Shown piece after piece: positions 23,568-46,095 of a stretch of 64,000 bases of DNA. Origin of the DNA: Parahaliea maris (GTDB lineage: Bacteria; Pseudomonadota; Gammaproteobacteria; Pseudomonadales; Halieaceae); contig NZ_VRZA01000004.1 in NCBI RefSeq assembly GCF_008064665.1, forward strand, positions 62,001-126,000, given 5' to 3'. The position numbers and the translations under genes are program-made. Below the pieces are notes generated by a model, which saw only the letters and a program-made list of their open reading frames with translations, did not search any database and was not told the origin of the DNA. Within the stretch, counting starts at the first letter, position 1, and each line of letters starts with the position of its first letter.

Positions 23568-25229
23568 CTAGTTTGCCTCCAGGATTGAACGAAGCCGGGC
23601 CCAGCTTTCATCAGGCAGGGTTTGAATGATTTTTACCAGCCTCTGATCGCCACTCCTGAGAATCCGACCACGGACAATTGGTGCAATCTCTTCGGCGCTC
23701 TGCACTTCTTCTTCTTCAATGTCGATTCCGCGAACTATAGCGCCTGTTCGGAGTGCTTCATCCAGAGTGAGCTTGAAAGCCTGTTCGAAAGAATTGCCGC
23801 AGGCGTGGCAGCTCTTGGCAGTCATCGGGTTCAGTGCGCCGCAGGCACTACATGGCTTCAGTCGCTCGGGCGCCTTGGGGAATTCGTGTCCGCAGACCGG
23901 GCAGGCCGCTGCACCGAGTTCGCACTCGTGTCCGCATTCCTTGCAGACCTTGTGCTTTGGGGTGTCGCCACCCCCGCGAGCTGCCGGAGACATCTCTTCT
24001 TCAACGCGCCTTGCGAAATCCTCGAAGAGTTGGAAAGAGGGCATCACCACGTAAGCCCGGGTGTCGTCGTCCGTGCCCATCGTCCTGACTACTCGACCCA
24101 CTGCCTGGCGGAATGCCAGCTCAGTCAGCGCGTTAGGCAGGTAGAGCAGGACTCGCAAGCGCTTGATGTCCACGCCCTCTGAAACCATCGCTACCGAGAC
24201 CAGCCAGCGTTTGTCCGTGTTTCGGAAGGCGCGGATCTTGGCATTTGGGTTGGGCATCTGGCTGTGTACCAGTATCGGCTTCTCGCCTTCAATGCGCTCG
24301 AGTAGGTCGACCATATATTCGGCCATCTGGATACTGGGGGCGATAATCAGGCCTCCCGCCTCGGGCATACGATGACGAAGCTCAGAGAGTTTGTTGCTGC
24401 CCCATTCGATCATGGTCGCCTGGTAGCCGTCCTGTAGGGGTGTTACCTGGTCTTTTTCAAATTGCGGCGTCTTGGCCAGCCTGTAGAAGTCCAGGGCCTT
24501 CTGAAGCCCGTGAACCCGCTTCAGCTCGGGCGGAAGTTCTGCCTTTTCGTGCCCAGAAACCTTCACCTCCTGACCATCCAGATCGACAGTGAATTTACCC
24601 TCGTGGCGGTGGAAAGTAACGGGGCGACAGTAACCCAGATCAACAGCTTCGCCGTAGGTGAGGGTATAGGTGCCGTCCTCGGGATGGTCGATGGCACCTG
24701 CGTCGTCATAAGCGAGCCATACAGACTCCGCTCCGTCTGAGCGAATGGGGGTGCCTGTGAGCACCAGGACATAGCGACCGTCCGCGAAGGCGCCGTCTGC
24801 ACCGCGGCCCCATGCCGCCTCTACCGCGGCGTGGTGGTGCTCATCGCAGATCACCAGGGTTTTGTTGGCCCTGCACACCGCTTGCAGCTCTGGCAGAAGA
24901 TCCTGGATGGCAGCCCAGGTGGCGCAAACATCGACGGAGAGGCCTTCAATGTCGCCATCTGCTGCGGTGACTTTGGCCATGTGACGACCGGTGACGAACC
25001 GGAAGTCGTCAGCCCACTGGTTCACGACTTCTGCTCGCGGCGCGATCACGATAACCCGTTCTATCTCACCCATCTGAATGAGTGTTTCAGCGATAGCGCA
25101 GGACGCGAGGGTCTTGCCCGCACCCGGGGCCGCATTGATGAGGAAATGACGATCCTCGCCACGAGCAACCAGCCAATCGATGGCCTTGTTGTGTGCCTCA
25201 CGCTGCCAATTACGCAGTTTGATTTTCAT
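23568..25229 (-). CDS. DEAD/DEAH-box (SF2) helicase with C-terminal zinc ribbons
   Basis: 553 residues from MKIKLRNWQRE, with AGGG six bases before the ATG. SF2 motifs: APGAGKT (about 34-40), DEHH (129-132), GTPIR, VAMVSEGVDIKRL and QAVGRVVRT. Four CxxC knuckles (about 420-480) make two zinc ribbons, unusual at this position and suited to binding nucleic acid. Its start overlaps the stop of a small HNH gene (ATGA), so helicase and nuclease are translationally coupled and may act as one antiviral or DNA-processing complex. It is the last gene of the leftward operon. Confidence 0.88.
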   Translation of the reverse strand: MKIKLRNWQREAHNKAIDWLVARGEDRHFLINAAPGAGKTLASCAIAETLIQMGEIERVIVIAPRAEVVNQWADDFRFVTGRHMAKVTAADGDIEGLSVDVCATWAAIQDLLPELQAVCRANKTLVICDEHHHAAVEAAWGRGADGAFADGRYVLVLTGTPIRSDGAESVWLAYDDAGAIDHPEDGTYTLTYGEAVDLGYCRPVTFHRHEGKFTVDLDGQEVKVSGHEKAELPPELKRVHGLQKALDFYRLAKTPQFEKDQVTPLQDGYQATMIEWGSNKLSELRHRMPEAGGLIIAPSIQMAEYMVDLLERIEGEKPILVHSQMPNPNAKIRAFRNTDKRWLVSVAMVSEGVDIKRLRVLLYLPNALTELAFRQAVGRVVRTMGTDDDTRAYVVMPSFQLFEDFARRVEEEMSPAARGGGDTPKHKVCKECGHECELGAAACPVCGHEFPKAPERLKPCSACGALNPMTAKSCHACGNSFEQAFKLTLDEALRTGAIVRGIDIEEEEVQSAEEIAPIVRGRILRSGDQRLVKIIQTLPDESWARLRSILEAN

Positions 25230-25423
25230 TTTGCACCCTTCCGTAGATTGCAGGTCGCACACAGCGCCTGCCCGTTGTCTGTTGTGGTGGCACCGCCCTT
25301 TGAGTAGGCCAACACGTGATCTGCATGAAACTGCTGGTCAAGCGGCTTGGCGCAACTGCAGCACTTCCCCCCGGCTATCCAAGCCAAGATTCGCCTCTGT
25401 CGCTTGCTGAATCGCCTGTTCAT
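25226..25423 (-). CDS. Small HNH endonuclease
   Basis: 65 residues, essentially one HNH domain: CCSCAKPL and CATCN supply zinc cysteines, and HADHVLAYSKGG the catalytic His pair. It overlaps the genes on both sides by 4 bp, so it is made together with them. It has no DNA-recognition domain of its own, which suggests that the helicase or the upstream HTH protein targets it. Confidence 0.87.
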   Translation of the reverse strand: MNRRFSKRQRRILAWIAGGKCCSCAKPLDQQFHADHVLAYSKGGATTTDNGQALCATCNLRKGAK

Positions 25424-25692
25424 CGGCTCAGCCAGTACTCCGTCAAGGTCACTTCCTTAACCGGAAGGTTCCGTGGTGGTTCCAGCGTTGCGGACTCGTT
25501 GATCCTTCTCAGTGCGGCCACGAACGGTACGCGCTTCGACTTGATGACATATCCGTCTCTGCGCATATCTGAAATCACCTTGGTCAGGCTGGGCACGCCG
25601 AAGAGAACAATGCATTCGAGCTGCGTGATGGGGTGGCCTGCGAGGAGGTGCTCTTTTACCCCCAGCACCAATTGAGTTCTGCTGTATGACAT
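25420..25692 (-). CDS. Small winged-helix protein (HTH_39-like)
   Basis: 90 residues. The run ITQLECIVLFGVPSLTKVIS followed by DMRRDGYVIKSKRV matches the helix-turn-helix pattern of HTH_39-type proteins, which often accompany phage and island nucleases. It overlaps the HNH gene by 4 bp. It could be a specificity or regulatory subunit for the HNH-helicase pair; this is inference. Confidence 0.65.
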   Translation of the reverse strand: MSYSRTQLVLGVKEHLLAGHPITQLECIVLFGVPSLTKVISDMRRDGYVIKSKRVPFVAALRRINESATLEPPRNLPVKEVTLTEYWLSR

Positions 25693-25701: not shown

Positions 25702-26007
25702 TTATGCCGCCATGGAAAGCGTGTGTTCCAAGAGAGTCTCCTGGGATATGTGGGGTCCGAAGTCATCTTCGGACGAGTACTCCTGGCTCACGATCCGCCA
25801 GCTCCAGCGCTCCATCACCTCATCCACTGGAAGTTCTGAAAACGGCGTGCGCCCATGAAATGCAGTCCTGGGCGACGGGCTGACGGAGTCATCCGCTGCA
25901 TCTGCAATCAGCGACGCGCACTCCAGTAATTCGTGAGATGGAATTTCGCCACCGTATACACGCTGGAGCTCCGCGTAGATCTGGCGAACTTTCTTAGGCT
26001 TGTTCAT
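25702..26007 (-). CDS. Small protein of unknown function
   Basis: 101 residues from MNKPKKVRQIY, chosen for GGGAG seven bases upstream. It is acidic in its C-terminal half (SSEDDFGPHISQE). I do not recognise the family. It lies 9 bp upstream of the winged-helix gene and 90 bp after the ARPP-1 gene, in the same leftward operon. Confidence 0.65.
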   Translation of the reverse strand: MNKPKKVRQIYAELQRVYGGEIPSHELLECASLIADAADDSVSPSPRTAFHGRTPFSELPVDEVMERWSWRIVSQEYSSEDDFGPHISQETLLEHTLSMAA

Positions 26008-26097
26008 GCGCTTGCTCCCGTGCATCGGTGTCGTTGAAATTCAGTTAGTGCGGCGTCCTTGCCGCGGCCCTATTGGGTGTTCCCCTTCAGAGCCTCG

Positions 26098-27063
26098 TTA
26101 GAGGCTCCGCCTGTGCCTGCGTCCCGGGCGATAGCCCGAGGGCGCTTGCTCCGTCACAAACCCTGACAGGTGGACGACTTGGCCCTCTACGGCCAATGCT
26201 GCCGAGGCCAGATGGCCTGAGAGAAGACGATGGTCCTGGCCCATGCCGACGGAGTCGTAGCGCTCCCATTGCCCGCCCTCGATAATTTCAAGAAAGCGCA
26301 GTGCCTCTGAGAGTGAGGCTCTCTGGCGGTCGACGGGGGCAGATTCAAGTGCGTCTATGGCGTAGCTCTTGATGAGCTTGCCGTTCAGGTTGGCGTAGGT
26401 AGTGGCCTTGTCGAAAAGATCCATCCCCACGAGCTTGCCGTGCAGAAAATAGAAAGCACCCACCTGGCGAGCCTCAGGTTCGAGCTCGCCTACATACTCA
26501 TCAAGTGTCGGCGCCACACCCTGATACATATCTGCCATGGCCGATGTATTCGATGTGGACTCCATTACAGAGAACTTGCGATCAATTTCAGACCACACCT
26601 CGCCCTGGTCACTGCGCCGAGAGCCCAATTGCCGCATTGAGCGGCTCACAGAGGCCATTTTTTTGGCCCGGCCGCGGGCGAAGTGGGTCCGGTCGGTACG
26701 CTCGAAGTTTTCAGAGCGGTAAGACCAGCGGCCCGACTCCACGCAGGATACGGGTATGACTGCTGTGGTCTGGGCGGGCACGAGCAGCGTGAGGTTGACC
26801 ACCCGGTTCTGTTTTGCGCCTACCAACTCCTCGCCGTCGAGCAGGAGTACGGGGCTGTCCAGTTTGTTCTCGAGCTTGAGCTCGGGAACGCTACCTGAGT
26901 CACTGGTCTCAGTTATTTCGACGCCGGACCTGTCAAACGCCTGGTCCAGAGTCATGTAGCTAAGGTCTGACTCCTGCGTGAAATTAAAGATTGGCGCGAT
27001 CGCCAGTCCCCGGAATTCCTTTGGCTGGCCAAAAACGATATTCTTGGGTGGTAACACTGTCAT
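26098..27063 (-). CDS. ARPP-1 family (DUF6569) protein
   Basis: 321 residues. The N-terminal ~290 residues match the ARPP-1 fold as I know it: FRGLAIAPIF, a conserved PVLLLDGEELVGAKQNRVVN, VIPVSCVESGRWSY, and a late YDSVGMGQDHRL. The family was named from genes associated with ADP-ribosylglycohydrolase and rhodanese-phosphatase genes in prokaryotic conflict systems; its biochemical role is unknown. A canonical sigma-54 promoter lies 28 bp upstream, and it is the first gene of the operon ending with the HNH-helicase pair. Confidence 0.75.
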   Translation of the reverse strand: MTVLPPKNIVFGQPKEFRGLAIAPIFNFTQESDLSYMTLDQAFDRSGVEITETSDSGSVPELKLENKLDSPVLLLDGEELVGAKQNRVVNLTLLVPAQTTAVIPVSCVESGRWSYRSENFERTDRTHFARGRAKKMASVSRSMRQLGSRRSDQGEVWSEIDRKFSVMESTSNTSAMADMYQGVAPTLDEYVGELEPEARQVGAFYFLHGKLVGMDLFDKATTYANLNGKLIKSYAIDALESAPVDRQRASLSEALRFLEIIEGGQWERYDSVGMGQDHRLLSGHLASAALAVEGQVVHLSGFVTEQAPSGYRPGRRHRRSL

Positions 27064-27101: not shown

Positions 27102-27118
27102 AGCAGGAGATGTGCCAG
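27102..27118 (-). promoter_or_regulatory. Sigma-54 promoter of the ARPP-1 to helicase operon
   Basis: On the minus strand the sequence reads TGGCACA-TCTC-CTGCT, with GG and GC separated by exactly 10 bases, as required by sigma-54. The predicted start is near 27091, giving a 28-nt leader before the ATG at 27063. A one-mismatch IHF-like site (TATCAA-N4-TAA) at 27160-27172 lies about 70 bp upstream. Confidence 0.8.
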
Positions 27119-27329: not shown

Positions 27330-28832
27330 ATGACAAAAGAAGCGCTTGTCTGCTGGGTAGGAGGCCGTGACCTGGATGCGTCTAGAGGGATCAGCGATAA
27401 ACCTGGCCCGATTCTGAGTACGCTAAAGGAGAGGCCTCATGCGAAGGTGCATCTGTTATATAACTACGACCGCGATGAAGTTCATGCCTATGGTGATTGG
27501 CTTGGTGCCCAGGTAAATGTCGAGATTCACCTCCATGAAGCTGACTTAAGTACTCCGGTTCATTATGGGGACATTTACCAGGCCGCCAGTAAGTTAATGA
27601 AAGCACTGTCTGCAGAGATTTCATTCGAGGATATGTCGGTCCTAATAAGTCCCGGTACGCCTCAAATGCAGACAATTTGGATCTTGATGTGCAAGACCGC
27701 CTTTCCCGCAGCGATGCTCGAGGCATCAGAAGAACAGGGCATAACTGATTTCATAATGCCCTTCGATATCGCAGCAGACTACATCCCTAACATTCGTGCA
27801 GAGTCTGACGCGAACTTGCGAAGGATGGCCGCCGGCCAGGCAGCCACACCTCCGGCGTTTGAGAGCATCATCAGACAGAGCCCGCTAATGAACGCACAGA
27901 TTATGAAGGCTGAGAAGATTGCTAAGCGAGATATTCCCGTCTTGATTCTCGGCGAGTCGGGTACAGGCAAGGAGATGTTTGCAGAGGCAATCCACGAGTC
28001 CAGTTCAAGGGCTGATTCTGAATTCGTAGTGGTTAACTGCGGAGCTATTCCGCAAGACCTCGCTGATAGTGAGTTGTTTGGACACAAAAAGGGTGCGTTT
28101 ACTGGAGCCGTCGCGGATAGGGTAGGGCGGTTTCAAGAGGCCGATGGCGGCACCATTTTCCTGGATGAGTTCGGAGAGCTGCCTGCAGATACACAGGTGC
28201 GATTATTGCGAGTACTCAATGATGGCACCTTCACTCGCGTCGGCGATAAGGGCAGGATAAAGGTCGATGTACGTGTGATAGCAGCAACAAATCGCGACCT
28301 TATGGCTGAAGTGGTGGAGGGACAGTTTCGGGAGGACCTGTTTTATCGAATTGCCGTGGGAATTATCAATCTTCCGTCTTTGCGAGAGCGAGAAGGGGAT
28401 CTGATGCTGCTGACGGATAAGTTTCTCAAGGACATAAATGAGGCGGAGCTGGACTTGGATTCCGGCTATAAGCATAAAAAATTATCTGCTAAGGCAATAA
28501 ATGTTATGAAGTCTCATGGCTGGCCGGGCAATGTCAGGGAGCTACAGGCGAGCCTTACGCGCGCGGCTGTATGGTCAGTCGGTGAAACCATCACTGAGCG
28601 CGAAATGCGTGAAGCACTCTTGGAGCGGCCCGCAAAGGCGGGTGACCTTTTGGGTAGGAGCCTGGATAATTCTTTTGATATTCAGGATGTTATAAAGGAG
28701 TTAAAGCGTCACTACATCAAGAAAGCGTTAGCGGAGACGGGCAATAACAAAACCAAATCGGCCGAAAAACTAGGGCTCAATAACTACCAGACACTGAATA
28801 AGTGGATAGAAGATGTAGGACTAAAGGAATAG
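27330..28832 (+). CDS. RtcR-like sigma-54-dependent activator with CARF-type sensor domain
   Basis: 500 residues. Residues ~1-155 resemble the N-terminal CARF domain of RtcR: a Rossmann-like start (ALVCWVGGRDLD), VNVEIHLHE, DIYQAASKLM and the ligand-loop-like VLISPGTPQMQ (about 105-115). The central AAA+ domain has Walker A GESGTGKE (208-215), the sigma-54-contact loop GAFTGA (255-260), Walker B TIFLDE and an R-finger region. A Fis-type HTH ends the protein (NKTKSAEKLGLNNYQTLNKW). RtcR of E. coli activates RNA-repair genes when its CARF domain senses RNA ends. No rtcBA genes are here; instead sigma-54 promoters precede ARPP-1, hsdR and DUF2130, which I infer to be its targets. Confidence 0.88.
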   Translation: MTKEALVCWVGGRDLDASRGISDKPGPILSTLKERPHAKVHLLYNYDRDEVHAYGDWLGAQVNVEIHLHEADLSTPVHYGDIYQAASKLMKALSAEISFEDMSVLISPGTPQMQTIWILMCKTAFPAAMLEASEEQGITDFIMPFDIAADYIPNIRAESDANLRRMAAGQAATPPAFESIIRQSPLMNAQIMKAEKIAKRDIPVLILGESGTGKEMFAEAIHESSSRADSEFVVVNCGAIPQDLADSELFGHKKGAFTGAVADRVGRFQEADGGTIFLDEFGELPADTQVRLLRVLNDGTFTRVGDKGRIKVDVRVIAATNRDLMAEVVEGQFREDLFYRIAVGIINLPSLREREGDLMLLTDKFLKDINEAELDLDSGYKHKKLSAKAINVMKSHGWPGNVRELQASLTRAAVWSVGETITEREMREALLERPAKAGDLLGRSLDNSFDIQDVIKELKRHYIKKALAETGNNKTKSAEKLGLNNYQTLNKWIEDVGLKE

Positions 28833-28849
28833 TTGGCATGCCCCTTGCT
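28833..28849 (+). promoter_or_regulatory. Sigma-54 promoter of the hsdRMS operon
   Basis: TTGGCATG-CCCC-TTGCT with GG-N10-GC spacing begins one base after the regulator's stop codon. The predicted start is about 28860, so an ATG at 28861 would be leaderless, and translation more likely begins at 28879. The -12 element is part of an inverted repeat, CCCCTTG / CAAGGGG (28841-28856). Confidence 0.85.
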
Positions 28850-28878
28850 CAAGGGGCAACATGGACAGAATTGAACCT

Positions 28879-31800
28879 ATGACATCACAGAACTTCGAAA
28901 TGCTTCGACCTCACTGGCCAGACCTGGCGAATCTGGGCGGTCATGCGGAGAAGTATGTATTCGATGACCCACAGAGTGCTTTGATCAAGCTGCGCTGCTT
29001 CGCTGAGAAGCTGGTGGGTATCGTCTATCGCGAGTGGTCTCTGCCCAGCTACCCCAATGACAAGTTCATTGATCGCCTGGAGAACAACGCGTTCGCGTCT
29101 GTAGTTGATTCCGCCATCATCGACAAGCTGCATGCCATACGCAAGGAAGGTAATAAAGCCGCACACGAGGGTAAGTTCGGTAAAGGCAGCAGTCTGTGGT
29201 TACTGAAAGAAGCTCATATTTTGGGCTCCTGGTTACTCCTGTCGCTGAAGAAGGGCGATAAGTCAGATCTGCAGCCCTTCGTGGAACCGCAGCCAGCAGA
29301 GAAGCTCTCTGCCAAGAAGGCTGAAGCTTTGCAGAAGCGCCTGGCCGAGCACCAGGCCCGTTTTGACCAGGCAATGGCTGAGCTCGAAGCCTCCCAAAAG
29401 GCGGAGCAGCAGGCGCAGGCGGAAGCTGCCAACCTTAAACAGCAATTGGATGATGCCGCGCTTGCGCAGCGTAGGAAGGCAAGCGAGGTTGCCAAGAACC
29501 TTCTCGAACTCAACGAAGCCCAGACGCGTCGGCGCCTGATCGATAGCGAGCTTCACAGCCGCGGTTGGGATATCGACCTCGTCGAAGGCAAGGATACCGA
29601 GGAAGTCCGGTTTGAAGTCGAGGTTGATGGCCAGCCGACGCAATCGGGTATTGGCTACTGTGATTACGTACTTTACGACGACAATGGCAAGCCGCTAGCC
29701 GTCGTCGAGGCCAAGCGCACACGAGAGAATGCCGAAAAGGGCCGACAGCAAGCCAAACTCTATGCGGACGCTTTAGAAAAGGCGCATGGCCAGCGTCCGG
29801 TGATTTTCTACACCAATGGACACGATATCTACATCTGGGATGACGCACAGAAGGCTACCCCGCGAAAACTGTACAGCTTCTATGGCAAGGACAGCCTGCA
29901 ATACCTGATTCGACAGCGAATTACCCGTAAGGATTTGAGCGCCACCCCCATCGATACGGACATCGCCGGGCGGATGTACCAAATTGAAGCCATCACCCGC
30001 GTATGTGAGCGCTTTACTGCGAATCACCGTAAGGCGCTCTTGGTGCAGGCAACAGGTACGGGTAAGACGCGTGTGGCCATCGCGCTCACCAAGCGCATGA
30101 TTGATGCCGGCTGGGCCAAGCGCGTGCTGTTCCTGTGTGATCGTAAGGAGCTGCGCAAGCAGGCCGGCAAGGCATACAACGAGTTCCTGAGTGAGCCGCT
30201 GTATATTGTTGGTAAGAGTAAGAAGGTCGATCGAGGGATGGCTCAGCTATACATTGCCACATACCCCGGCATGATGCGCATCATGGAAGAGTTTGATCCA
30301 GGTTACTTTGACCTCATTATCGCCGACGAGTCTCACCGCTCTATCTACAACGTCTTCGGCGATATTTTTAAGTACTACGATGCACTTCAGCTGGGTCTAA
30401 CAGCCACTCCGGTAGAGATGATCAGCCGGTCAACCAGCCAGCTGTTCGGTTGTGAGTACAAAATGCCGACGGCGAACTACCCGCTGGAACAGGCGGTGGC
30501 GGACGGCCACCTGGTCCCTTTCAAGGTGGTCAGCCACACCACACAGTTCTTGCGTGAGGGTATCCAGGGCCACAGCCTAAGCGATGAACAGATCGCCGAG
30601 TTGGAAGAGCAGGGCATTGATCCCAATGAGCTGGATTTCAACGCCGCCAGCCTCGATAAAGCCGTTTTCAACAAAGACACCAACCGCGCCATCCTAAAGA
30701 ACCTGATGGAGAGTGGTCAGCGACTGGCAGATGGCCAGACCCTCGGCAAATCCATCATTTTTGCTCGCAATATCCAGCACGCTGACCTGTTGGCCCAGCT
30801 GTTTGCTGAGATGTACCCCGAATACGGAGGCAACTTCTGCCGCGTGATCCACTCAAAATTCGAGCGCGCCGAGGAGCTTATCGACGATTTCAAGGCTACC
30901 GACGGCAAAGGCAGCGAGATCACCATAGCCATCTCTGTCGATATGTTGGACACCGGTATCGATGTCCCGGAGGTGCTGAACCTGGTGTTCGCCAAACCCG
31001 TGAAATCCAAGGTGAAGTTCTGGCAAATGATCGGCCGCGGTACGCGTCTATGCCCGAACCTGTATGGCCCCGCCACAGACGGCAGCGACGACAAGTCAAA
31101 GTTTCTGATTTTCGACCACTGGGCCAACTTCGAATATTTTGAGATGGAGCCGGAAGAGGAAGACCCTCGCCAGAGCAAGTCACTCAGCCAGAAGCTGTTC
31201 GAGGCCAGGCTTACTTTCGCTGAAGAAGCGTTGAAGCGCGGTGAAATGGACGCCTTTGGCAAGATGGTCGTGTTGATCAAGCAGGATATTGACAGCCTCG
31301 ACGATAAAAATATCGCCATCAAAGACAACTGGACGCTCAAGCAGCAGTTGAGCCAGGTGGACGTTCTCCACCAGTTTGCGCCCGTGACCAAGGGCTTACT
31401 GTTTGATCAAATGGCCCCGTTGATGCAGTGGCGCAACATCAAGGGGCAAAGCGAGGCCCTCAAATTCGATTTGGACATCGTCAATGCGCAGTACGCCCGG
31501 ATGGCGCAGCCCGGCCTCCTCGAGCCGGTTAAGGATCAGATACTGGGCAAGGTGCGAACGCTGTCCATGCACCTGAATCAGGTTCGCAACAAGGCCGCGA
31601 AGATCAACCAGATTCAGCAGGACGATTTCTGGCAAGTAGCGGCTTTCGATGATTTCGAGCAGCAGCGGCAAAGCCTACGTGGAGTGATTCATCTGCGCGA
31701 CAAGGGCGCAACGCCACCCCCGCAGCCCCTGAGGATCCTGGATATCAAGGAAGACGAGGGCGAGTACCTGACCGAGGAGCGAAAGACCAATATCCGCACA

Positions 31801-35123: not shown

Positions 35124-35126
35124 GCC

Positions 35127-36888: not shown

Positions 36889-37817
36889 TGCTGCTGGCTG
36901 AGTTTGCTGTAGACCCAGATACAATCGCCGATTGGAAGGCTCTGGCTCTCATAGAGGCTAGATTTGGGTTTCACAATGGGGCCGTGATACCTGAGTTCCC
37001 CAAGACCTGGTTAAGGGACCTCTCGCAGAAAGCTAGGAAGGAACTATACGGCTCTGCACAGTATTCAAAGGTAGAAGAGCGACTTCGTGATCTAAAACAA
37101 GGTTACCTGGTTGGTAGTGGGCGACCCTATCTGGGCGACAAAAGTTGGTTTGAGAACGCCCGTGCTCAACGTGACGGTAAGCCTTTCCATAGAATAGTAA
37201 CTCCACACGAAGCGGACGCTGACGATGTATGCGATATTTGGGGACTGAGCGACAGTGATTTCGATGATCTGCATGATACTCAGATTCAGAAGAAGGCCAA
37301 GAGTTACTCGGAAGCGACTTGCCTCTTGCTGGCAAATAGTAAAAGTATAAAGTTCGTAGACCCGTACTTTTCCGGTCGTCGGGGCTATCAAAAAGGATTG
37401 AGGTGCCTGCTCGAAGCGGCCGGAATGGGAAAGCGGCGCAACTTCGCAAAGGTGGAAGTACATACATCTGATCTTGCAGTCGAGAAAGGCAAGCCTTTTG
37501 ATCTAGAGCACGAGAAGTCCCTGGTACGACAAAATATCCCTCCGCTTTTGACCGCTGGTTTTGAGGTGATTTTTTATTGGTGGAAGGATTCAGGTAAGAA
37601 AGAAGTGCACCCTCGATACCTCATGACGGAACGAGCGGGGATTAGGTTCGATAGGGGTTTCAATATTCCGTCTGAGTTGGATGCCCAGGAAGGGGTGACG
37701 GACGTAACTATGATGAAACCTCAGAAATTGAATACTGAATGGAACCGTTACCGGCCTGAGGCGACAGTTTTCCAATCGTTAGATAACTTTAGAGTAGTCG
37801 GTACAGCCCAGGAGTAG
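36888..37817 (+). CDS. Unknown partner of the DUF3696 ATPase, possibly PLD-like
   Basis: 309 residues, overlapping the ATPase gene by one base. I do not recognise a named family. The middle contains IKFVDPYFSGRRGYQKGLRC, like the DPYF beginning of PLD-like/MIT_C domains. Later KKEVHPRYLMTERAGIRFDRG places a His-x-Arg motif where PLD-like proteins have catalytic HxK or HxR. This suggests a phosphodiesterase or nuclease effector activated by the ATPase, but the assignment is tentative. The N-terminal ~120 residues are unassigned. Confidence 0.6.
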   Translation: MLLAEFAVDPDTIADWKALALIEARFGFHNGAVIPEFPKTWLRDLSQKARKELYGSAQYSKVEERLRDLKQGYLVGSGRPYLGDKSWFENARAQRDGKPFHRIVTPHEADADDVCDIWGLSDSDFDDLHDTQIQKKAKSYSEATCLLLANSKSIKFVDPYFSGRRGYQKGLRCLLEAAGMGKRRNFAKVEVHTSDLAVEKGKPFDLEHEKSLVRQNIPPLLTAGFEVIFYWWKDSGKKEVHPRYLMTERAGIRFDRGFNIPSELDAQEGVTDVTMMKPQKLNTEWNRYRPEATVFQSLDNFRVVGTAQE

Positions 37818-37825: not shown

Positions 37826-40345
37826 ATGGACGAAATTCGTAAACAAATTTCCTCATTGCTCGGTCAAGAACCAGAAGACAGTGTGTGGGAGGCTTTGGCT
37901 GATTCAGGTGATGAGGTTCGCTTGGTAGCTGAAGCTGACCACGAAATAGGCGTATTGGATATATTCAACCTCCAAGTTGATGCAGAACTCGAACAACAGC
38001 GCAACAGTGATATATCGACCGCTCTGGCGAATCCGCATGCTCTAGACACAGTAAATACACATAAGCACGCGACGATTGAGGTCCTTGAAGAGTTGCGCCG
38101 TAGGGCTTTCGGAAAAGTTGTCACTCTAGAGAATGAACGCGGCGAACAGCTGAAGTACCGCGTTTCCCAAGCGAACTATTCGATTATTAAGGGTGCACGT
38201 GGTGAATTGCTTAACGTGGTTAATCGTTTAGCGCCTGTATCTCGTAAGCTTGCGCCTGCCGAGGTTGGGGATGTCATAGAACTTCCTCAGCAGGGCGAGT
38301 GTGAGGTTATATCGATTGATCTACTGGATCGTTTCGACGCTGGCCGCCTGGATACTTTCAGTCAGATGCAGTATCTGAGCGTGCTTCTTGAAGATCCAGA
38401 CTCTAGGATGGTTCTATCGAACGTAAGAAGCGCAGTTGACAGCTGGAAGGCTAGGTACTCGGAGCAAGTCGGTGATTTGGCTGAAATTTCAATGGATCTG
38501 GGCGATGGGCCGATTTCAGAGGATGAGTCCGAGTCGCTCGGTTCCAACTTCTATACGCGTACTACCAAAGCTCAAGAAGAACTAATGAGCCGGCCGGCCC
38601 GCGGCCTGTTGATCGTGGAGGGTATTGCTGGATCAGGAAAGACTTCAGTTGCGCTGGGTCGAGTAAAACAACTTCATGACGCCAGATACAGTGTTGAGGA
38701 GCGAGATGAGTTCTTTGCAGACCAGTCTTCTATGACAGGATTTGTGCTCAATAAGCAACTGATCATCTATTTGGAGAAGGCGGTGAACGAGCTCGGGCTG
38801 CCAAATATGCGAGTCAGAGAGTTTAAGGATCTCCAGAGTGATCTACTTCGTCAGCGCGCTCAGATACTACAACTCAAGATACCTGGAAATCCAAAGGGCG
38901 CTTTCTCTGCACTAAGGTCTTCTGGGCAGCCCTTTGAGTCATCCATGAATTGGTTACGTGATGTTGAGCGTTCGCTTACCACCAAGTTCCTTGGCGAAAT
39001 TCGTGACTGCCTGCAGAAGCGCGCAGATTGGATTGACCGCGTAAAGATGGAGGATGCGCGACTCGGAAAGTTGAGGGTGGATCATGCGAGCCTGCTGCAC
39101 CAGGTTTGGGACATAGTCTCCTCCGAACTAATTAGTTATATCGATAAATCAGAAAATACTCCAGAAGATAGATTCTTGGGAGAGGGACTGGCGAAACGAT
39201 TGAAGGGCTACTACGAGAAGTTCTATGATCTCGTTAGTGAAGACTCGCGCTGGTACTACTACGAGGGTGGTTGGCACACGCGTCCCAGGGGAGGCGACGT
39301 TATTGACGAGCCGCTACTCCCATTCAATGGCCGTCAGTTCCCGAGTAGAATCCAGAATTGGCTGAAAAACAGTATCCGAGATCGCGCGAGGACGGAATTT
39401 CGTCAAGCGATGTTCATGGACACAACAGCCGGGAACATGCCGCTTATTACCTCTTGGTATTTTGAGTCGCTAGAAGGGCTTTCAGCCAAGTATGGCGATC
39501 TGGAAGTCAAGGAGGTTGCATCGAGAGAGGCTGATCAGCGACTTACAAATGCCGATATGAACGTGCTTCTGGCTATTTGTGAGCTTTATTCCAAGGGGCA
39601 CACGTACTCAGAAACAGACCAGAAACGTATTGCAGCTTTCTTAGCTGAACCTAGGTATAGCTCAACAGTCTTCATAGACGAGGTTCAAGACTTTACTGAA
39701 ATTGAGGTGTTTTTGATGGGGCGCCAGGCGGATCCAAGGCGCAGTGCTGTCACCGCGGTTGGTGATTTCAAGCAGCAGCTGTACGTTGGGAAGGTAAGTT
39801 CGCTATCCGCGTGCTTCCCCAATGCTAATTCTTCAGAACTGGAAGTAGCTCAACTGACAGAAAACAAGCGCCAGACGAAGAATTTGGCCAATCACTCACT
39901 ACATTTTCGGGCCAAAATTTCCGAAGAAGGGAGTGTGTCCGTTTCTGGCGTGCCAGAGCCTATCTATGGTGACGATCTTACAAGCGATACATGTGGGCTC
40001 GAGACGGCGAAGGAACATGTCCTGAAATATATCGAGAATGCGAGTTTTGGATCGGTTGCTGTCATTCTACCGACCGACGAACTGGCGGAGCAGCTTGAGT
40101 CAGAATTGCGCGATGATATCAGCATGTTTTTTCGTGAAAGCACGTACTCTAAAGACAGTCGCGACCTCAATCGGAAGATCGATATTCATTTCACGACGCC
40201 ACGACCAACCAAGGGTCTAGAGTTTGACGTTGTGATAGCACCGTACTTTAACCACTTTGACCTTGAAAACCACATCGAAGCAAACTCAGCATACGTTACT
40301 GTTTCCAGGTCTCGAAAGAGGCTTCACCTCATTGATATTCATTAG
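37826..40345 (+). CDS. SF1 (UvrD/HelD-like) helicase with GreA/GreB C-terminal-like domain
   Basis: 839 residues, 8 bp after the previous gene. Residues ~95-167 read like the FKBP-fold C-terminal domain of transcript cleavage factors GreA/GreB: FGKVVTLENERGEQLKYR, a central LAPVSRKLAPAEVGDVIEL, and CEVISIDLL align with the same elements of E. coli GreA. Then comes an SF1A motor: VEGIAGSGKTSVALGR (about 264-279), FIDEVQDFTE (about 614), VGDFKQQLYVG, TENKRQTKN, TKGLEFDVVI and VTVSRSRKRLHLI. A Gre-like domain plus a HelD-like motor suggests binding in the RNA polymerase secondary channel and action on transcription. It closes the ATPase/effector trio. Confidence 0.8.
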   Translation: MDEIRKQISSLLGQEPEDSVWEALADSGDEVRLVAEADHEIGVLDIFNLQVDAELEQQRNSDISTALANPHALDTVNTHKHATIEVLEELRRRAFGKVVTLENERGEQLKYRVSQANYSIIKGARGELLNVVNRLAPVSRKLAPAEVGDVIELPQQGECEVISIDLLDRFDAGRLDTFSQMQYLSVLLEDPDSRMVLSNVRSAVDSWKARYSEQVGDLAEISMDLGDGPISEDESESLGSNFYTRTTKAQEELMSRPARGLLIVEGIAGSGKTSVALGRVKQLHDARYSVEERDEFFADQSSMTGFVLNKQLIIYLEKAVNELGLPNMRVREFKDLQSDLLRQRAQILQLKIPGNPKGAFSALRSSGQPFESSMNWLRDVERSLTTKFLGEIRDCLQKRADWIDRVKMEDARLGKLRVDHASLLHQVWDIVSSELISYIDKSENTPEDRFLGEGLAKRLKGYYEKFYDLVSEDSRWYYYEGGWHTRPRGGDVIDEPLLPFNGRQFPSRIQNWLKNSIRDRARTEFRQAMFMDTTAGNMPLITSWYFESLEGLSAKYGDLEVKEVASREADQRLTNADMNVLLAICELYSKGHTYSETDQKRIAAFLAEPRYSSTVFIDEVQDFTEIEVFLMGRQADPRRSAVTAVGDFKQQLYVGKVSSLSACFPNANSSELEVAQLTENKRQTKNLANHSLHFRAKISEEGSVSVSGVPEPIYGDDLTSDTCGLETAKEHVLKYIENASFGSVAVILPTDELAEQLESELRDDISMFFRESTYSKDSRDLNRKIDIHFTTPRPTKGLEFDVVIAPYFNHFDLENHIEANSAYVTVSRSRKRLHLIDIH

Positions 40346-40827: not shown

Positions 40828-40900
40828 GATAAACGCCACCAAGAAACATCGTTTTGCGGGTTGATCACCTATGCAAAAGGAAATGCTGTAAGGAAGATCT

Positions 40901-42778
40901 ATGGATAGGGTCGTTTCACCCCCAAAGAAGGATTTTGATCGGCTCCGTCAGCCAATGACTGCTGGCGAGAAAAAGGTATTTGATCTCTTTGACAACTACC
41001 TCGCTCCTGAATGGGAAATTTACGTTCAGCCACATATGAATGGCCTTCGGCCAGATTTTGTCCTCCTGAACCCCTCAGTTGGAATCGCAGTTTTTGAGGT
41101 TAAAGACTGGGACCTGGATGCTATGCATTACAGCGTAGAAGAGCGTAAAGGTAGAGTTCCGGGCTTGATAGCTATCAAAGATGGCAAAAAATTCTCCAGG
41201 CAGTCAGATAACCCTGTAGAAAAAGTTTATCGCTATAAGAACGAGATATTCGAGCTTTATTGCCCGAGGCTCCAGCAAGGCGCAGGATTTGCCGTCATCA
41301 CGGCTGGTGTTATTTTTCCCTTCGCGGACGACGAGCGGGTGCGGAGTCTTTTTGCGATGAGCCTCAAGCACCGCGGAATGGACCGATATCCCGCCTACAA
41401 TCCTGTTTCCGGCGCTTCTGCCATTGAGAGCGGGAATATCGGTACAGTCTTTCCTGAGGGCGTACGACAGTATTCTAAGGTAATGAATCCCGCTATTGCT
41501 GATGACATCCGTTATTGGCTCGTAGAACCCGATTATGCATCGACTCAAAGAGAGCCGCTCATACTCGACCCAAACCAAAGGGGGCTCGTTACTGGTAGAA
41601 CTCAGTCAGGCTACCGAAGAATAAGAGGGGCTGCTGGTTCCGGCAAATCATTGGTCTTGGCTGCTCGCGCTGCTGAGCTGCTTAATCAAGGCAAGCAGAT
41701 ACTGGTAGTGACTTTTAACATCACACTTCTTCACTACTTGATGGACATTGCGGTCCGGTGGCCCAGAGAAAGAGGTAATACAAGATCGGATATCACCTGG
41801 CTCCATTTTCATGCCTGGTGCAAACGGGTCTGTGAAGATGCCGGCTGCGAGGAACAATATAGTCAGCTCTGGGCAGATGATGCCAATCCCAATCGCGTTC
41901 TGGACCACGTGTTGCCTGGATTAGTGGGTAATATCCTTGATAGCCAGGAGGGTAGCGAGGTCCCTCGATATGATGCGGTGCTTGTGGATGAGGGGCAGGA
42001 TTTTATGCCTCATTGGTGGAGTGTCCTCCGCAAGGTCTGCAAACAAGGTGGGGAAATGTTGCTTGTTGCCGATGCTACGCAGGATATCTACGAAACCGCC
42101 AGGGCCTGGACAGATGAGGCAATGACCGGCGCAGGTTTTCGCGGGGGATGGGCTGAGCTTCCTGTCAGCTATCGGATGCCCCAGCAAGCGCTGACAAAGG
42201 CTAGAGAATTTGCCGAGCGTTTCCTTCCCGAAGATATAACCAATCTACCTGAGAACAGGCAGATAGAAGGCGATCTGGAGCCAGCCGAACTTCGCTGGGT
42301 GCAGATCAACCCTGAACAGGCTGCTGAGGTCTGCTGTAAGGAAATCTTGAGGTTCTTTCAAAAAAGTTCCCTGCAAGACCTGGCGATCACTGATGCGACC
42401 TTCCTTTGTGGGCTCAAGAGTTTCGGCTACGAGGTAGTCAAACTCTTGGGAGGGAAGGGGATAAAGTCTGTTCACACATATCACCCCGATGAACAGGAGT
42501 CCAGGCGACAGAAGGTAGGCTTCTACATGGGTGACGCCAGAGTAAAGGCGACTACATTGCATAGCTTCAAGGGTTGGGAGTCGCGGATTCTTGTCGTCTA
42601 CATTGGAGAAACGGTGAGTGAGAAAGATCTCGCACTAATCTACACCGGGCTGACACGTCTGAAGCGAAGCACTAAGGGGAGCTGTCTGACGGTGGTATCT
42701 AGTGCCCCGCAGTTGGCCGAGTATGGTCGAAGCTGGCCCTCCCATGAGAGTCTTCAGGCAGCACCTTTTGCTATGTAG
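40901..42778 (+). CDS. NERD-domain nuclease fused to UvrD-like helicase
   Basis: 625 residues. The N-terminal NERD domain (about 20-130) has the nuclease-like pattern GLRPDFVLLNPSVGIAVFEV followed by KDW. The SF1 motor has RGAAGSGKSLVLAARAAEL (about 241), LVDEGQDF (about 361), ADATQDIYE, SYRMP, and TTLHSFKGWESRILVV. NERD-helicase fusions process damaged or foreign DNA and are common in defence islands. AAGGAAG lies eight bases before the ATG. It is the last gene of the long rightward run. Confidence 0.88.
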   Translation: MDRVVSPPKKDFDRLRQPMTAGEKKVFDLFDNYLAPEWEIYVQPHMNGLRPDFVLLNPSVGIAVFEVKDWDLDAMHYSVEERKGRVPGLIAIKDGKKFSRQSDNPVEKVYRYKNEIFELYCPRLQQGAGFAVITAGVIFPFADDERVRSLFAMSLKHRGMDRYPAYNPVSGASAIESGNIGTVFPEGVRQYSKVMNPAIADDIRYWLVEPDYASTQREPLILDPNQRGLVTGRTQSGYRRIRGAAGSGKSLVLAARAAELLNQGKQILVVTFNITLLHYLMDIAVRWPRERGNTRSDITWLHFHAWCKRVCEDAGCEEQYSQLWADDANPNRVLDHVLPGLVGNILDSQEGSEVPRYDAVLVDEGQDFMPHWWSVLRKVCKQGGEMLLVADATQDIYETARAWTDEAMTGAGFRGGWAELPVSYRMPQQALTKAREFAERFLPEDITNLPENRQIEGDLEPAELRWVQINPEQAAEVCCKEILRFFQKSSLQDLAITDATFLCGLKSFGYEVVKLLGGKGIKSVHTYHPDEQESRRQKVGFYMGDARVKATTLHSFKGWESRILVVYIGETVSEKDLALIYTGLTRLKRSTKGSCLTVVSSAPQLAEYGRSWPSHESLQAAPFAM

Positions 42779-43009
42779 TGTGGTTTGGGCCACGCGAGCA
42801 GCCGCAACTAGTTTCCGATCTGTGCCTCATTGCACATAGCATTCTCCTCGATTTAATCATCATTGCATAATAAATATTATATTTAGATAGTAAAAGTTAC
42901 TACTGCAGGCTTGCTGTATCTTAAAAAAGCTAATAAAAACAGATAGATAAATAGCTGGCACGGTCTCTGCAATAGAGGTGTATACGTTACACAATATTGG
43001 AGACTCACA
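42779..43009 (+). other. Regulatory gap before the DUF2130 operon
   Basis: AT-rich, 231 bp, no gene. It contains an inverted repeat TGTGC / GCACA (42821-42836) about 150 bp upstream of the predicted transcription start, a position suitable for an enhancer-like activator site, and A/T runs that could bend or bind IHF. Confidence 0.5.
42956..42971 (+). promoter_or_regulatory. Sigma-54 promoter of the DUF2130-DUF2779 operon
   Basis: TGGCACG-GTCT-CTGCA has the exact GG-N10-GC spacing. The predicted start is near 42982, giving a 28-nt leader with GGAG seven bases before the ATG at 43010. The leader length equals that of the ARPP-1 transcript. Confidence 0.82.
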
Positions 43010-44278
43010 ATGAGCCAACGCATCGTAATCAACCCCAACGATCCCGTTACCTGCCCGGATTGTTCCCATGAATTTCCCCTGGTCCAGGGTATCTCGCATC
43101 ACCTGATAGAGCGCTACGAAGAGGAGTACGACCAGAAGCTCAGCCAAGAGCGAGAGGCACTGGAAGCCCGTGCTCTGAGAACGGCCGAGCGCCAGTTGGC
43201 TACTCGGTTTGAAGAACAGCTCGGTGAACTCAGCGAGAAGCTCGAGGAAGCGGAGGCTGATCGCGACAAGGTTAAAGGGAAGCTGATCAAGGAGAGAGAG
43301 AAGGCTGTCCTGGAAGCCAAGCAGGAAGCTCAGGAGGCGCTTGATGAGCTCCAAACCCAACTTTCCGAAAAGGACGAGAAGCTAGAAGAGTTCCGCCAGG
43401 AAGAACTCGCCCTGAGGAAAGCTAAACAAGCGCTCGACGAAGAGAAGCGAAATCTCGAGCTCAACCTGCAACGACAGTTGGAGAAGCAGCAGCAAGCTCT
43501 TCGTTCTGAGCTTGGGAATGAATTTCAGCTGCGTGAGGCGGAGCTTCGCAAGAAGATCGACGATGCCCACCAGGCCAATGAAGATCTGAAACGGAAGCTC
43601 GAACAAGGATCACAGCAGCTTCAGGGAGAGGTGCTGGAACTTGAGCTGGAGGATGTCCTTACCCAATCCTTCCCCATTGACTCTATAGAGTCTGTATCGA
43701 AGGGCGTTCGAGGCGCAGACGTAATCCAAACGGTCAACTTAAGGAGCGGTGCCACCGCGGGAAGGATTGTGTGGGAGACCAAGCGCGCCGAGAACTGGTC
43801 GAATAAGTGGATTGCCAAGCTGAAGGATGACCAGCAGTCCATTGGCGGCGAGATCGGCGTGCTTGTTAGCACAGCTTACCCGGCAAACGTCGACGAGCCG
43901 TTCACGCAGATCGACGGCATCTGGCTCGTTAGGCCGGAGTTTGCGAAACCGCTTGCAGATGCACTTCGGGCCATTCTCATAGAAGCGTTTCGCCAGAAGA
44001 CCGCCTCATCCGGCAAGAACGAAAAAATGGAAGCGCTATACGACTACGTGTGCTCAGCGCAGTTCGCTCAGAAAGTGAGGGCCGTGCTGGATGCGTATGC
44101 CGCCATGCGTGATGATCTGGAGCGGGAGAAGGCTGCTATGCAGAGGCTCTGGAAAAAGCGAGAGGGGCAGTTGGAACGGATTACCGTCAATGTCGTGGGT
44201 ATATGCGGCGAGCTCCAGGGGCTTTCTACGGCTTCTTTGCCGCATCTGGATGAAATTGCGCCCATAGAGGTCGCATAA
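43010..44278 (+). CDS. DUF2130 protein: coiled coil plus nuclease-like domain
   Basis: 422 residues. An N-terminal zinc-knuckle-like CPDCSHEF (about 17-24), a long Glu/Lys/Gln-rich coiled coil (about 35-205), then the DUF2130 domain: DVIQTVNLRSGATAGRIVWE, TKRAENWSNKWIAKLKDDQ. The pattern of an acidic residue followed by E-x-K resembles PD-(D/E)XK nucleases, reminiscent of RmuC. Function is unproven. First gene of a sigma-54 operon. Confidence 0.85.
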   Translation: MSQRIVINPNDPVTCPDCSHEFPLVQGISHHLIERYEEEYDQKLSQEREALEARALRTAERQLATRFEEQLGELSEKLEEAEADRDKVKGKLIKEREKAVLEAKQEAQEALDELQTQLSEKDEKLEEFRQEELALRKAKQALDEEKRNLELNLQRQLEKQQQALRSELGNEFQLREAELRKKIDDAHQANEDLKRKLEQGSQQLQGEVLELELEDVLTQSFPIDSIESVSKGVRGADVIQTVNLRSGATAGRIVWETKRAENWSNKWIAKLKDDQQSIGGEIGVLVSTAYPANVDEPFTQIDGIWLVRPEFAKPLADALRAILIEAFRQKTASSGKNEKMEALYDYVCSAQFAQKVRAVLDAYAAMRDDLEREKAAMQRLWKKREGQLERITVNVVGICGELQGLSTASLPHLDEIAPIEVA

Positions 44279-44302: not shown

Positions 44303-44569
44303 ATGAACGAAGAGCAGGAAGAGATATGTCGCAAGGTAAGGGTGATGACCAAAGCGCTTTTGAAGAGGGGTGCTGAGCCTAGTGATGTCTCTTTCGCCCT
44401 GAGCTTGGTCGCAACAGAGCTGGGCTTGAAGGTGACCGAGGGAAGCATCTCCGTTTTCCCTGTGGTGATGACCGGAATCACCCATGCGGTAGCGAACGCA
44501 ATGGAGGATACAGCGGATAGCTGCGAGGCCGAAGATGCCGAGGTTCCCGTCGGCGCTACCGTGCATTGA
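44303..44569 (+). CDS. Small acidic protein of unknown function
   Basis: 88 residues, 24 bp after the DUF2130 gene, with a GGGG-containing ribosome site. The first half is helical (EEICRKVRVMTKALLKRGAE), the end very acidic (EDTADSCEAEDAEVP). No family recognised. The arrangement suggests a subunit or inhibitor for its nuclease-like neighbours. Confidence 0.6.
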   Translation: MNEEQEEICRKVRVMTKALLKRGAEPSDVSFALSLVATELGLKVTEGSISVFPVVMTGITHAVANAMEDTADSCEAEDAEVPVGATVH

Positions 44570-44619
44570 AGCTGCCACGGCGTATCTATCCAAAGGTTGA
44601 GATTACTAAGGAGAGTGAA

Positions 44620-46095
44620 ATGACTAACGGACCAGTACTTTCAAAAAGCCGATTCATGGCGGGGCACCAGTGCCCGCTCCAGCTGTGGCTGAAAGTGAAT
44701 GAGAAGAATGCGCCTGAGCTTGAGGTTGATGAAGTTGCACGGGCACGCATGGATAGCGGCACCCGGGTGGGTAATGTCGCCAGAGATTACTATCCAGGCG
44801 GCCTGCTCATCGAAGGCGAGCGATATGAGTACGAAAAGAAGTGTGCGTTGACTCGAGAGGCGATAGCCGCAGGCGCCAGCGTGATTTACGAGGCTGCCTT
44901 CAAGCATGAAAACACCTTTGTTGCTATCGACATACTTTCGCTTGAGGCAGATGGATGGGTGATTCGGGAAGTGAAGTCCTCCACGAGTGTCAAAGACGAG
45001 CATATCCCTGACATTGCTGTTCAGCTGATGACCGCCAGAGCAGCAGGGCTGCAGGTTGCACGCGCGGAGGTGGTATACCTGAACAGGGATTGCAAGTATC
45101 CCGACCTGTCCAACTTGTTTGCTTCCGAAGACGTCACCTCCAGGGCGGAGGCCTTGCTGGGTGATTTGGCAGAGCTGGAGCAGAGACTTCAATTGGTCAT
45201 GATTCAAGAGAAACCGGAGATCGAGCCTGGCCAACATTGTGATTCTCCGCGAGACTGCCCTTTCAAAGGACGTTGCCTACCGGAACTGCCTGAACATCAC
45301 GTCAGTACCCTGTATAGACTGGGTAAGGACAAGGCGCGCAGCCTGGTAGCCCAAGGAGTACAAACCGTCGATCAGATCGGGGCTGATGTGAAACTCAGCG
45401 CCACGGCGGCGAGGCAGGTCGATTCAGTCCGTGCTAATCAGGTAATCATAGAGCCGGGCCTGACGGATGGATTGAGCACTCTGTCCTTCCCGGCTGCGTT
45501 CCTGGATTTTGAGACCGTGTCCATGGCAATACCTGCTTGGGATGGGTGTAGCCCGTACACCCAGGTTCCCGTTCAGTTCAGCTGCCATGTGATGGCCGCT
45601 GATGGGGCTATAGAACACTATGAATGGCTGGCTGTGCCTGGAGGCGACCCGCGGCCGGACCTTGCCAAAGCACTGGTGAACGCCTGTGACGGCGCGGCCT
45701 CAGTGATTGCCTACAACGCGGGATTTGAAAGGTCTTGCATTAAGGGGCTGGTTAATATTTGCCCGGAGCTTGAGGGCGAGCTAGTCACTATTGCAGACAA
45801 ACTGGTAGATCTTCTCCCAATCGTGAGAAACAACGTCTACCACCCCCAATTCCATGGCAGCTTCAGCATTAAATCGGTCCTGCCGGCGTTGGTGCCTGGT
45901 GCCGGGTACGCAGATTTGGAGGTCGCCTCAGGGGACGTCGCTGCGCTCAAGTTAGAGCAAATGATGCTAGGAGAGCTCGAGGGGAGTACTGGCGAACTCA
46001 GGGAGGCACTCTTGAAATACTGTGAGACGGATACATACGCCATGGTAGAACTCTACCGGAGGCTTCTGGAGATTGCTGATCAGGCCGCGGCCTGA
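44620..46095 (+). CDS. DUF2779 protein: Cas4/RecB-like nuclease plus DEDD-like domain
   Basis: 491 residues from MTNGPVLSKSRFMAGHQCP, chosen because AAGGAG lies six bases upstream; an upstream TTG overlapping the previous stop is less likely. The N-terminal half resembles Cas4/RecB-type PD-(D/E)XK enzymes (VAIDILSLEADGWVIREVKS, then VQLMTARAAGL) with cysteines that could hold an iron-sulfur cluster (HQCP; HCDSPRDCPFKGRC). The C-terminal half is the DUF2779 domain with LDFETVSMAIPAWDG, like the first motif of DEDD exonucleases. Two nuclease folds in one chain suggest nucleic-acid degradation. Confidence 0.82.
   Translation: MTNGPVLSKSRFMAGHQCPLQLWLKVNEKNAPELEVDEVARARMDSGTRVGNVARDYYPGGLLIEGERYEYEKKCALTREAIAAGASVIYEAAFKHENTFVAIDILSLEADGWVIREVKSSTSVKDEHIPDIAVQLMTARAAGLQVARAEVVYLNRDCKYPDLSNLFASEDVTSRAEALLGDLAELEQRLQLVMIQEKPEIEPGQHCDSPRDCPFKGRCLPELPEHHVSTLYRLGKDKARSLVAQGVQTVDQIGADVKLSATAARQVDSVRANQVIIEPGLTDGLSTLSFPAAFLDFETVSMAIPAWDGCSPYTQVPVQFSCHVMAADGAIEHYEWLAVPGGDPRPDLAKALVNACDGAASVIAYNAGFERSCIKGLVNICPELEGELVTIADKLVDLLPIVRNNVYHPQFHGSFSIKSVLPALVPGAGYADLEVASGDVAALKLEQMMLGELEGSTGELREALLKYCETDTYAMVELYRRLLEIADQAAA

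Follow-up and report, generated by a model that had tools for sequence, protein, structure and literature searches.

Regulators that combine a CARF sensor with a sigma-54 activator have been linked to defence genes before. RtcR-like CARF-NtrC proteins associated with restriction-modification (RM) were predicted in 2014 to be sigma-54 activators answering phage-made ligands (PMC4012209, in the part of the paper available), and the 2024 account of the CoCoNuTs, in its accessible sections, places RtcR homologues at the head of superoperons with type I RM and, in some, Druantia III, for which induction of the entire cluster was proposed (PMC11090510). For RtcR itself, the available text of PMC9650030 describes a CARF domain that acts as a brake on the AAA+ part, together with a sigma-54 promoter, and gives RtcA and RtcB as essential for E. 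coli RtcR in vivo. Here we describe a locus of this kind in a 64,000-nucleotide stretch of Parahaliea maris DNA (the window), in which a gene at 27330..28832 on the plus strand encodes a CARF-AAA+-HTH (helix-turn-helix) sigma-54 activator of the RtcR_PspF2 type, set in an island of defence genes of which three units are headed by sigma-54 sites. The idea that such regulators switch RM or defence superoperons is already predicted in PMC4012209 and PMC11090510, as far as the available parts of both extend; the window holds a member of this predicted class, with a new and testable anatomy. A promoter map, divergent units and a leaderless start for these regulators were not found in the open-licence literature, among the matches listed.

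The window regulator has the same domain order as the RtcR-like activators of PMC4012209 and is a member of that family by profile, for which the available part of the paper describes neither promoter sites nor units that are divergent or distant, and RM as the sole defence system. The island joins an RtcR homologue to type I RM as in the CoCoNuT superoperons of PMC11090510 (accessible sections); unlike them, it gives no match to McrB or McrC among the island-protein matches listed (Pfam, PADLOC), and its units run both ways from separate sigma-54 sites. In the main text of PMC11090510, as available, 'promoter' occurs once and 'leaderless', 'Hachiman' and 'DUF2130' are absent. The regulator has the CARF-AAA+-HTH order and the sigma-54 promoter in common with RtcR of the rtcBA operon, but its neighbours are defence genes, it scores 354 bits against the NCBIfam RtcR equivalog with its cut-off of 650, and rtcB (PF01139), found in 7 of 16 genomes searched, has no match in the window genome or in that of the relative HTCC2148. 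HsdR, HsdM and HsdS follow in a row as in EcoEI-like type I RM, although here hsdR comes first and has its sigma-54 site so near that hardly any leader would fit. MADS likewise groups methylase, specificity and ATPase-like genes, and the island matches the mad2, mad3, mad5 and mad8 models, but the MAD3 equivalog reaches 31 bits against a cut-off of 420, and for hsdM and hsdS the type I RM models are the better match.

An RtcR- or CARF-like sensor followed by a GAFTGA-bearing AAA+ domain and a Fis-type HTH, as claimed by the original prediction made from the letters of the window alone, was borne out by Pfam, NCBIfam, PADLOC, profile comparison and a structure model. The translation of 27330-28832 contains a readable GAFTGA motif, a sigma-54 AAA+ domain (PF00158, E 4e-68) and a Fis-type HTH (PF02954, E 5e-5), and the PADLOC model PDLC01995 (RtcR_PspF2--CARF_AAA_HTH) covers residues 4-498 of 500 with an E value of 3e-193 and 641 bits, the next family scoring 244; by these profiles the gene is assigned to the RtcR_PspF2 CARF-sigma54 activators and, with its NCBIfam score below the cut-off, not to RtcR proper. 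An AlphaFold2 model of residues 1-170, built from a 17-sequence alignment, reached a pLDDT of 91 and has a CARF fold: in a Foldseek comparison with the PDB, which returned 70 chains at E <=0.001 and 1720 at E <=10, the best 50 matches inspected were all CARF or ring-nuclease proteins (best E 6e-7), among them Csm6, Can2, Cam1, Card1, Cad1, Cdn1, Cami1, VC1899, SSO1393 and Sulfolobus ring nucleases. A sequence profile of the same domain also led to Csm6 (E 7e-6), and the CARF-like nature of this domain, on which the prediction had staked itself beforehand, thus stood. Within the S-x-G-T-P loop G109, T110 and P111 are invariant in 17 of 17 sequences. No lysine or arginine is visible directly after this loop, and the same absence is reported for RtcR in the available part of PMC4012209, so that the ligand may be other than cyclic oligoadenylate. 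The window genome encodes RpoN (PF04552, E 1e-70), as do 15 of 16 genomes searched, the exception being a genome that is 75% complete. Cas10 was sought through PF22335 alone, and the one window-genome protein that it matches belongs to the GGDEF family (143 bits for PF00990, against 28); this model matches 26 of 30 genomes at E 0.001 and 20 of 30 above the Pfam cut-off, a count that is not to be taken at face value because E. coli and the GGDEF protein match too, and PF22335 positives were accordingly rejected as a Cas10 source of ligand. Among those 30 genomes the Cas10 match is clear in one (G581, 2e-32) and possible in another (G149, 6e-12).

The three sigma-54 -24/-12 sites lie before ARPP-1 (TGGCACATCTCCTGC, 27103..27117, minus strand, a match to the strict pattern with 39 nucleotides (nt) from the C of the -12 element to the ATG), between the regulator and hsdR (TGGCATGCCCCTTGC, 28834..28848, plus strand, with the -12 C 12 nt before the hsdR ATG) and before DUF2130 (TGGCACGGTCTCTGC, 42956..42970, plus strand, its ATG again 39 nt past the -12 C). 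The predicted leaders of ARPP-1 and DUF2130 are about 28 nt long, and that of DUF2130 contains GGAG. That three exact motifs head three units was confirmed by scanning the strict pattern, which has 5 matches in the window against 0.87 expected, a number reached in 0 of 100 shuffles; the remaining two (12558, minus strand, and 14674, plus strand) sit within open reading frames (ORFs), and a pattern with one mismatch allowed is not enriched in the window (43 against 38.5 expected). The accompanying chance estimate of one motif per 260 kb per strand was too low, because the genome of 4.85 Mb holds 96 strict matches (43 + 53), where the reversed pattern has 38; this is a density of about one per 100 kb per strand. 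Such a density predicts roughly 0.45 matches in the 22.5-kb interval in which three are observed, and three sites heading three units of one island are still unexpected after the correction. A GGCATAA element common to the regions upstream of ARPP-1 and DUF2130 was considered and left unproven.

The promoter motifs proved to be conserved in related islands, as had been predicted. HTCC2148 (loci L009 and L113) retains all three, with TGGCACAGCACCTGC before ARPP-1, TGGCACGCCCCTTGC before hsdR and TGGCACGTATTCTGC before DUF2130, in intergenic DNA that has diverged around them, such that TGGCAY and GC are kept while spacer and flanks change. All three are also retained in genome G665 (L149 and L150), as TGGCACGCCAACTGC, TGGCACGCCCCTTGC and TGGCACGCTATCTGC, whose HsdR is just 45% identical to that of the window, yet promoter and repeat are kept. 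A further genome (G554, locus L151) keeps the ARPP-1 and hsdR sites, its contig ending before any DUF2130 match. The ARPP-1 site is thus kept in L009, L149 and L151 and is weak in L124 (11.3 bits), and the DUF2130 site, kept in L113 and L150, is found in 3 of 3 covered islands, window included. The G665 regulator (L149, 5754-7273) is split over two frames with its promoter sites kept, which may be a natural loss or an assembly error.

Relatives were drawn from three sources: a scan of 84,980 species genomes for close relatives only, 80 loci of which were kept and 19 used (L009-L026 and L059); 398 genomes of the phylum, 22 with a CARF match (the window's own included), from which 17 of the 21 others were fetched; and 390 genomes of the order, 26 with a match and overlapping the phylum set, from which 16 of 22 new genomes were fetched, G610 being by its coordinates HTCC2148 and not counted as new. 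The ten omitted are weaker matches. L026, whose match starts at residue 98, and L064 were excluded for receiver-like N-termini, the former being left out of counts after selection. This gave 53 regulators in all, 51 of which were scored, L013 and L023 being too near a contig end. A sigma-54 site of at least 12 bits lies between -5 and +41 nt of the stop codon in 37 of 51 CARF-type regulators, rising to 35 of 43 at 41% or more identity, and in none of 550 controls (490 other mechanically called ORFs of at least 250 aa from these loci, and 60 other sigma-54 activators from the species-genome scan). The question of whether a CARF-sigma54 gene recurs beside hsdRMS is answered by the regulator-promoter-hsdR unit, which is present in dozens of loci. 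Under the same rule, three of five plasmid loci found later through the CARF part pass, precisely those preceding hsdR (in Azotobacter chroococcum, Pseudomonas luteola and Vitreoscilla filiformis, the last with TGGCAA at 12.6 bits); the CARF part gave no match in a phage collection at 1e-5. The A. chroococcum plasmid (L173) was dropped as a restriction test host, as its record has hsdR and hsdM in several frames. In L022, L024 and L025 a site lies 98-110 nt past the regulator stop. The palindrome TTTCAACCGTGGTTGAAA stands just after the L022 stop, with a strong sigma-54 site some 75 bp further on, and is less perfect in L024 and L025; it is a candidate enhancer of these more distant CARF activators, which have another HTH. 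In one genome (G187) there are two CARF-sigma54 regulators (L130 and L131), separated by about 15 kb and neither with a stop-codon site.

The genes behind these sites are exchanged. Downstream cargo is mostly EcoEI-like hsdRMS, replaced in L120 by another type I family with the promoter retained, in L122 by a MoxR-vWA-like pair (named by eye) followed by drmAB, in L159 by a TerY-like/phosphatase/kinase set (TerY and phosphatase by eye) with a Mokosh-like helicase, and in L164 by Druantia III (DruH, DruE) with the site at +203. On the divergent side a site of 11.3 to 17.8 bits precedes a recognised defence gene or ARPP-1 in nine loci: ARPP-1 in the window, L009, L149, L151 and L124, HamAB (Hachiman) in L115, GajA with GajB in L120 and GajA in L117 (Gabija), and SIR2-HerA in L119. 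A divergent site of at least 11 bits within 400 nt is found for 14 of 52 regulators, as compared with 22 of 463 control ORFs, and at 13 bits for 12 of 52 against 11 of 463. Five of the 14 divergent-site loci (L127-L130 and L059) have no recognised defence gene there, the divergent side of L128 carrying a phosphate-binding-like protein by eye. Within one clade the divergent site is present in L115, L117, L119, L120 and L124, each with a defence gene or ARPP-1, and is lacking in L121, L116, L118 and L123 (the upstream genes of the last three judged by eye); this presence and absence speaks for function over a fixed inherited block, in a small sample.

We propose, with a probability of about 0.8, that the product of 27330-28832 is a ligand-sensing sigma-54 activator that would switch on at least three units of the island at once: the divergent ARPP-1/winged-helix/HNH/helicase operon, the type I RM operon that immediately follows the regulator and, 14 kb downstream, the DUF2130-DUF2779 operon. 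On the model of RtcR, the CARF domain probably restrains the AAA+ ring until a ligand derived from infection or RNA damage binds, and the released ring would then open sigma-54 polymerase at each -24/-12 site. The CARF fold, the sites kept in relatives and the stop-codon site with changing effectors behind it are what we observe. The ligand, the activation and the transcription itself we infer, and the single inducible regulon of the original prediction is supported in part, in its CARF sensor and in the conserved sites at the ARPP-1, hsdR and DUF2130 units, with the rest a matter of interpretation. Several observations weigh against this proposal. The site matrix was made by hand from the sigma-54 consensus, and it was fixed, like the 12-bit threshold, with sites already in view. 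Fourteen of the 51 regulators lack a stop-codon site, among them L020, L127-L131, L164 and L149 at 41% or more identity (L149 counting as a miss because its first frame ends early, the second piece being followed by a site) and L021, L022, L024, L025, L059 and L125 below it, and the two of five plasmid loci that fail both carry a vWA-PP2C-kinase set. A divergent DruH-like gene in L121 has no site. Of the 398 phylum genomes 4 have ARPP-1: in two it is next to the regulator, in G139 no regulator lies within the 17 kb read, and G224 is cut by the contig end, and we therefore rejected ARPP-1 as an obligate partner. Finally, no enhancer (upstream activating sequence, UAS) emerged for this clade from a search for exact dyads of 4-6 bp in the 300 bp upstream and last 250 bp of 31 regulators, in which AT-rich or 4-bp dyads were slightly above shuffles and nothing longer was common beyond close relatives, or from synonymous-site conservation in four clades, none of which exceeded the 95% shuffle maximum.

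The lack of an established enhancer motif shared by the three regions is also what one would expect if the hsdR unit alone were under this regulator, the ARPP-1 and DUF2130 sites being relics or serving another sigma-54 activator, and the regulator does have eight further matches in the genome, seven at E <1e-35. We consider this unlikely, as the divergent site beside the regulator recurs in nine loci before different recognised defence genes and the DUF2130 site is kept in every covered island. Far less probable still is an ordinary constitutive island, its motifs due to chance or to inheritance as part of a fixed DNA block. In its favour, the strict motif with its 96 matches is no rarity in the genome, the loci of the window, L009, L149 and L151 are closely related to one another, and type I RM is usually considered to require constant methylation, but such an island would account poorly for a stop-codon site in 37 of 51 regulators against 0 of 550 controls, for spacers and flanks that diverge while TGGCAY and GC stay, and for different effectors behind the same site.

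The spacing of the stop-codon site to hsdR bears on how this gene would be expressed. An hsdR N-terminus is present in 33 loci, and in 31 of these a site lies close before it; in the two without (L161, L163) hsdR does not immediately follow the regulator. The first in-frame ATG follows the -12 C by 11 nt in one locus, 12 nt in 15 and 13 nt in nine, making 25 of 31, and by 24-37 nt in the other six. Transcription from sigma-54 promoters usually starts about 12 nt past the -12 C, and in the window the predicted start falls on or beside the hsdR ATG; with an ATG 11-13 nt after the -12 C, the sigma-54 mRNA of hsdR should therefore be leaderless or nearly so, with one or two nt before the start codon. 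A second in-frame ATG lies 12-18 nt further in 24 of the 25 tight loci (L165 is without one), from which the leader would be about 17-19 nt in most. In L158 an AGGAGG precedes the first start, with the N-terminal extension kept. In L015 and L016 the leaderless position, 12 nt past the -12 C, is taken by an ATG that is out of the hsdR frame and opens a short ORF, and hsdR starts 25 nt later.

An inverted repeat (TGCCCCTT..AAGGGGCA, 28839..28858, plus strand) spans the -12 element of the window site and an AAGGGG, the Shine-Dalgarno-like right arm before hsdR. Across 15 tight-spacing loci, picked from the window's order, the -24/-12 spacer is complementary to the stretch preceding the hsdR ATG, with 85.7% of cells paired, 6 of 7 pairs changed on both sides and a covariation of 0.547 against 0.270 in shuffled alignments (0 of 500) and 0.261 in the best slid version; with two plasmid loci added, these values become 86.6% paired and 0.545 against 0.274 shuffled (0 of 500), the best slid version reaching 0.252. 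The rows are related, so that covarying cells are not independent events, but the arm pairs differ among them and include GCCCC/GGGGC, GGTCC/GGACC, GGCC/GGCT, GGGC/GCCA-type and GATCC/GGATC. Tentatively, and at rather less than even odds, the repeat may serve as an RNA lock in which read-through mRNA from the regulator would hide the Shine-Dalgarno sequence and start of hsdR, whereas sigma-54 mRNA, starting at the ATG, would escape, an arrangement compatible with the proposed regulon. The ATG at 11-13 nt in most loci, the covariation in both alignments and a right arm reading AAGG, AGGGG or AGGA in 11 of 17 rows (by eye) are consistent with such a lock. It is harder to square with the ten tight loci of a second clade and L014, omitted from the alignment, where no repeat is seen (L117 folds no better than shuffles), with decay of the repeat in L160 and L165, with single-sequence fold z-scores of just about -1, and with the six loci that would have 24-37 nt leaders. 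Alternatively the repeat is a palindrome of double-stranded DNA, an operator, which would covary likewise.

A broader reading, which we hold to be doubtful, would make the locus a plug-in immune switch, with outward sigma-54 promoters, exchangeable defence cargo, a leaderless hsdR mRNA, hairpin-locked read-through, a message selected by damage and possibly suicide. One promoter would be welded to the regulator stop codon and often another placed on the divergent side, with type I RM, the ARPP-1 operon, Hachiman, Gabija and SIR2-HerA as the systems exchanged. Work on MazF reportedly describes ribosomes that favour leaderless mRNA; were the ligand the end of a broken RNA, the damage that produced it could also give rise to such ribosomes, and the trigger would then both write and select the message. 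With RM off at rest, the host DNA would be unmodified at induction, which might strike it as a suicide response, although weak read-through into hsdMS or slow translation of leaderless hsdR could let methylation precede restriction. An inducible type I RM thus poses the question of whether host DNA is methylated before induction or induction is suicidal.

Most bacterial defence genes are catalogued by effector, and less is known of what turns them on; the recurrence of this sensor and promoter arrangement with different defence genes suggests a reusable on-switch for bacterial immunity. If confirmed, the stop-codon site would provide a rule, readable from sequence, for finding inducible defence islands, predict regulon membership of the uncharacterised ARPP-1 and DUF2130-DUF2779 genes, and offer a reporter for the CARF ligand.

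The divergent operon begins with ARPP-1 (26098..27063, minus strand, as for the whole operon; PF20208, E 1.5e-98) and continues with a 107-aa protein of no family (25702..26025; 85-95% identical in L009, L149 and L151), a winged-helix protein (HTH_39, 25420..25692; PF14090, E 7e-5), a small HNH-like protein of 65 aa (25226..25423; HNH named by eye from its residues) and an SF2 (ResIII) helicase with C-terminal zinc ribbons (23568..25229; PF04851, E 2e-19; Zn_Ribbon_1), whose start we would shift to an ATG within the listed GTG ORF. The 65-aa ORF is under the length limits of the ORF list and overlaps its neighbours at both ends; being separate from the helicase ORF that it overlaps, it contradicts the single 'HNH-helicase' gene described earlier.

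On the plus strand, a complete type I RM set by Pfam and PADLOC stands behind the regulator: EcoEI-like HsdR (28861..32346; REase_I, E 6e-273; EcoEI_R_C, E 2e-17), HsdM (32398..33963; MTase_I, E 7e-180) and HsdS (33960..35123; PF01420, E 4e-49). An AAA ATPase with DUF3696 (35263..36888; Pfam) and its 309-aa partner of no family (36888..37817) form a pair that recurs in L014, L017, L114, L117 and L119, and are followed by a HelD/UvrD-like helicase (37826..40345; weak matches) and a NERD-UvrD helicase (40901..42778; PADLOC C3a187, E 4e-157). These genes of the hsdS-DUF2130 interval may belong to the regulon as well, but a single transcription unit from hsdR to the NERD helicase would have to cross gaps of 139 nt (35124-35262) and 555 nt (40346-40900), the latter holding a 130-aa ORF of no known family. 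The DUF2130 protein (43010..44278; PF09903, E 7e-60) is followed by a DUF2779 protein with a Cas4/RecB-like N-terminal part (44566..46095; PF11074, E 2e-38; weak Cas4 and TIGR03491 matches). On either side of the island lies an integrase, at 22558-23511 (plus strand) and at 46472-47767 (minus strand), the two belonging to different Pfam families; the former also adjoins the island in L151, where it is 96% identical.

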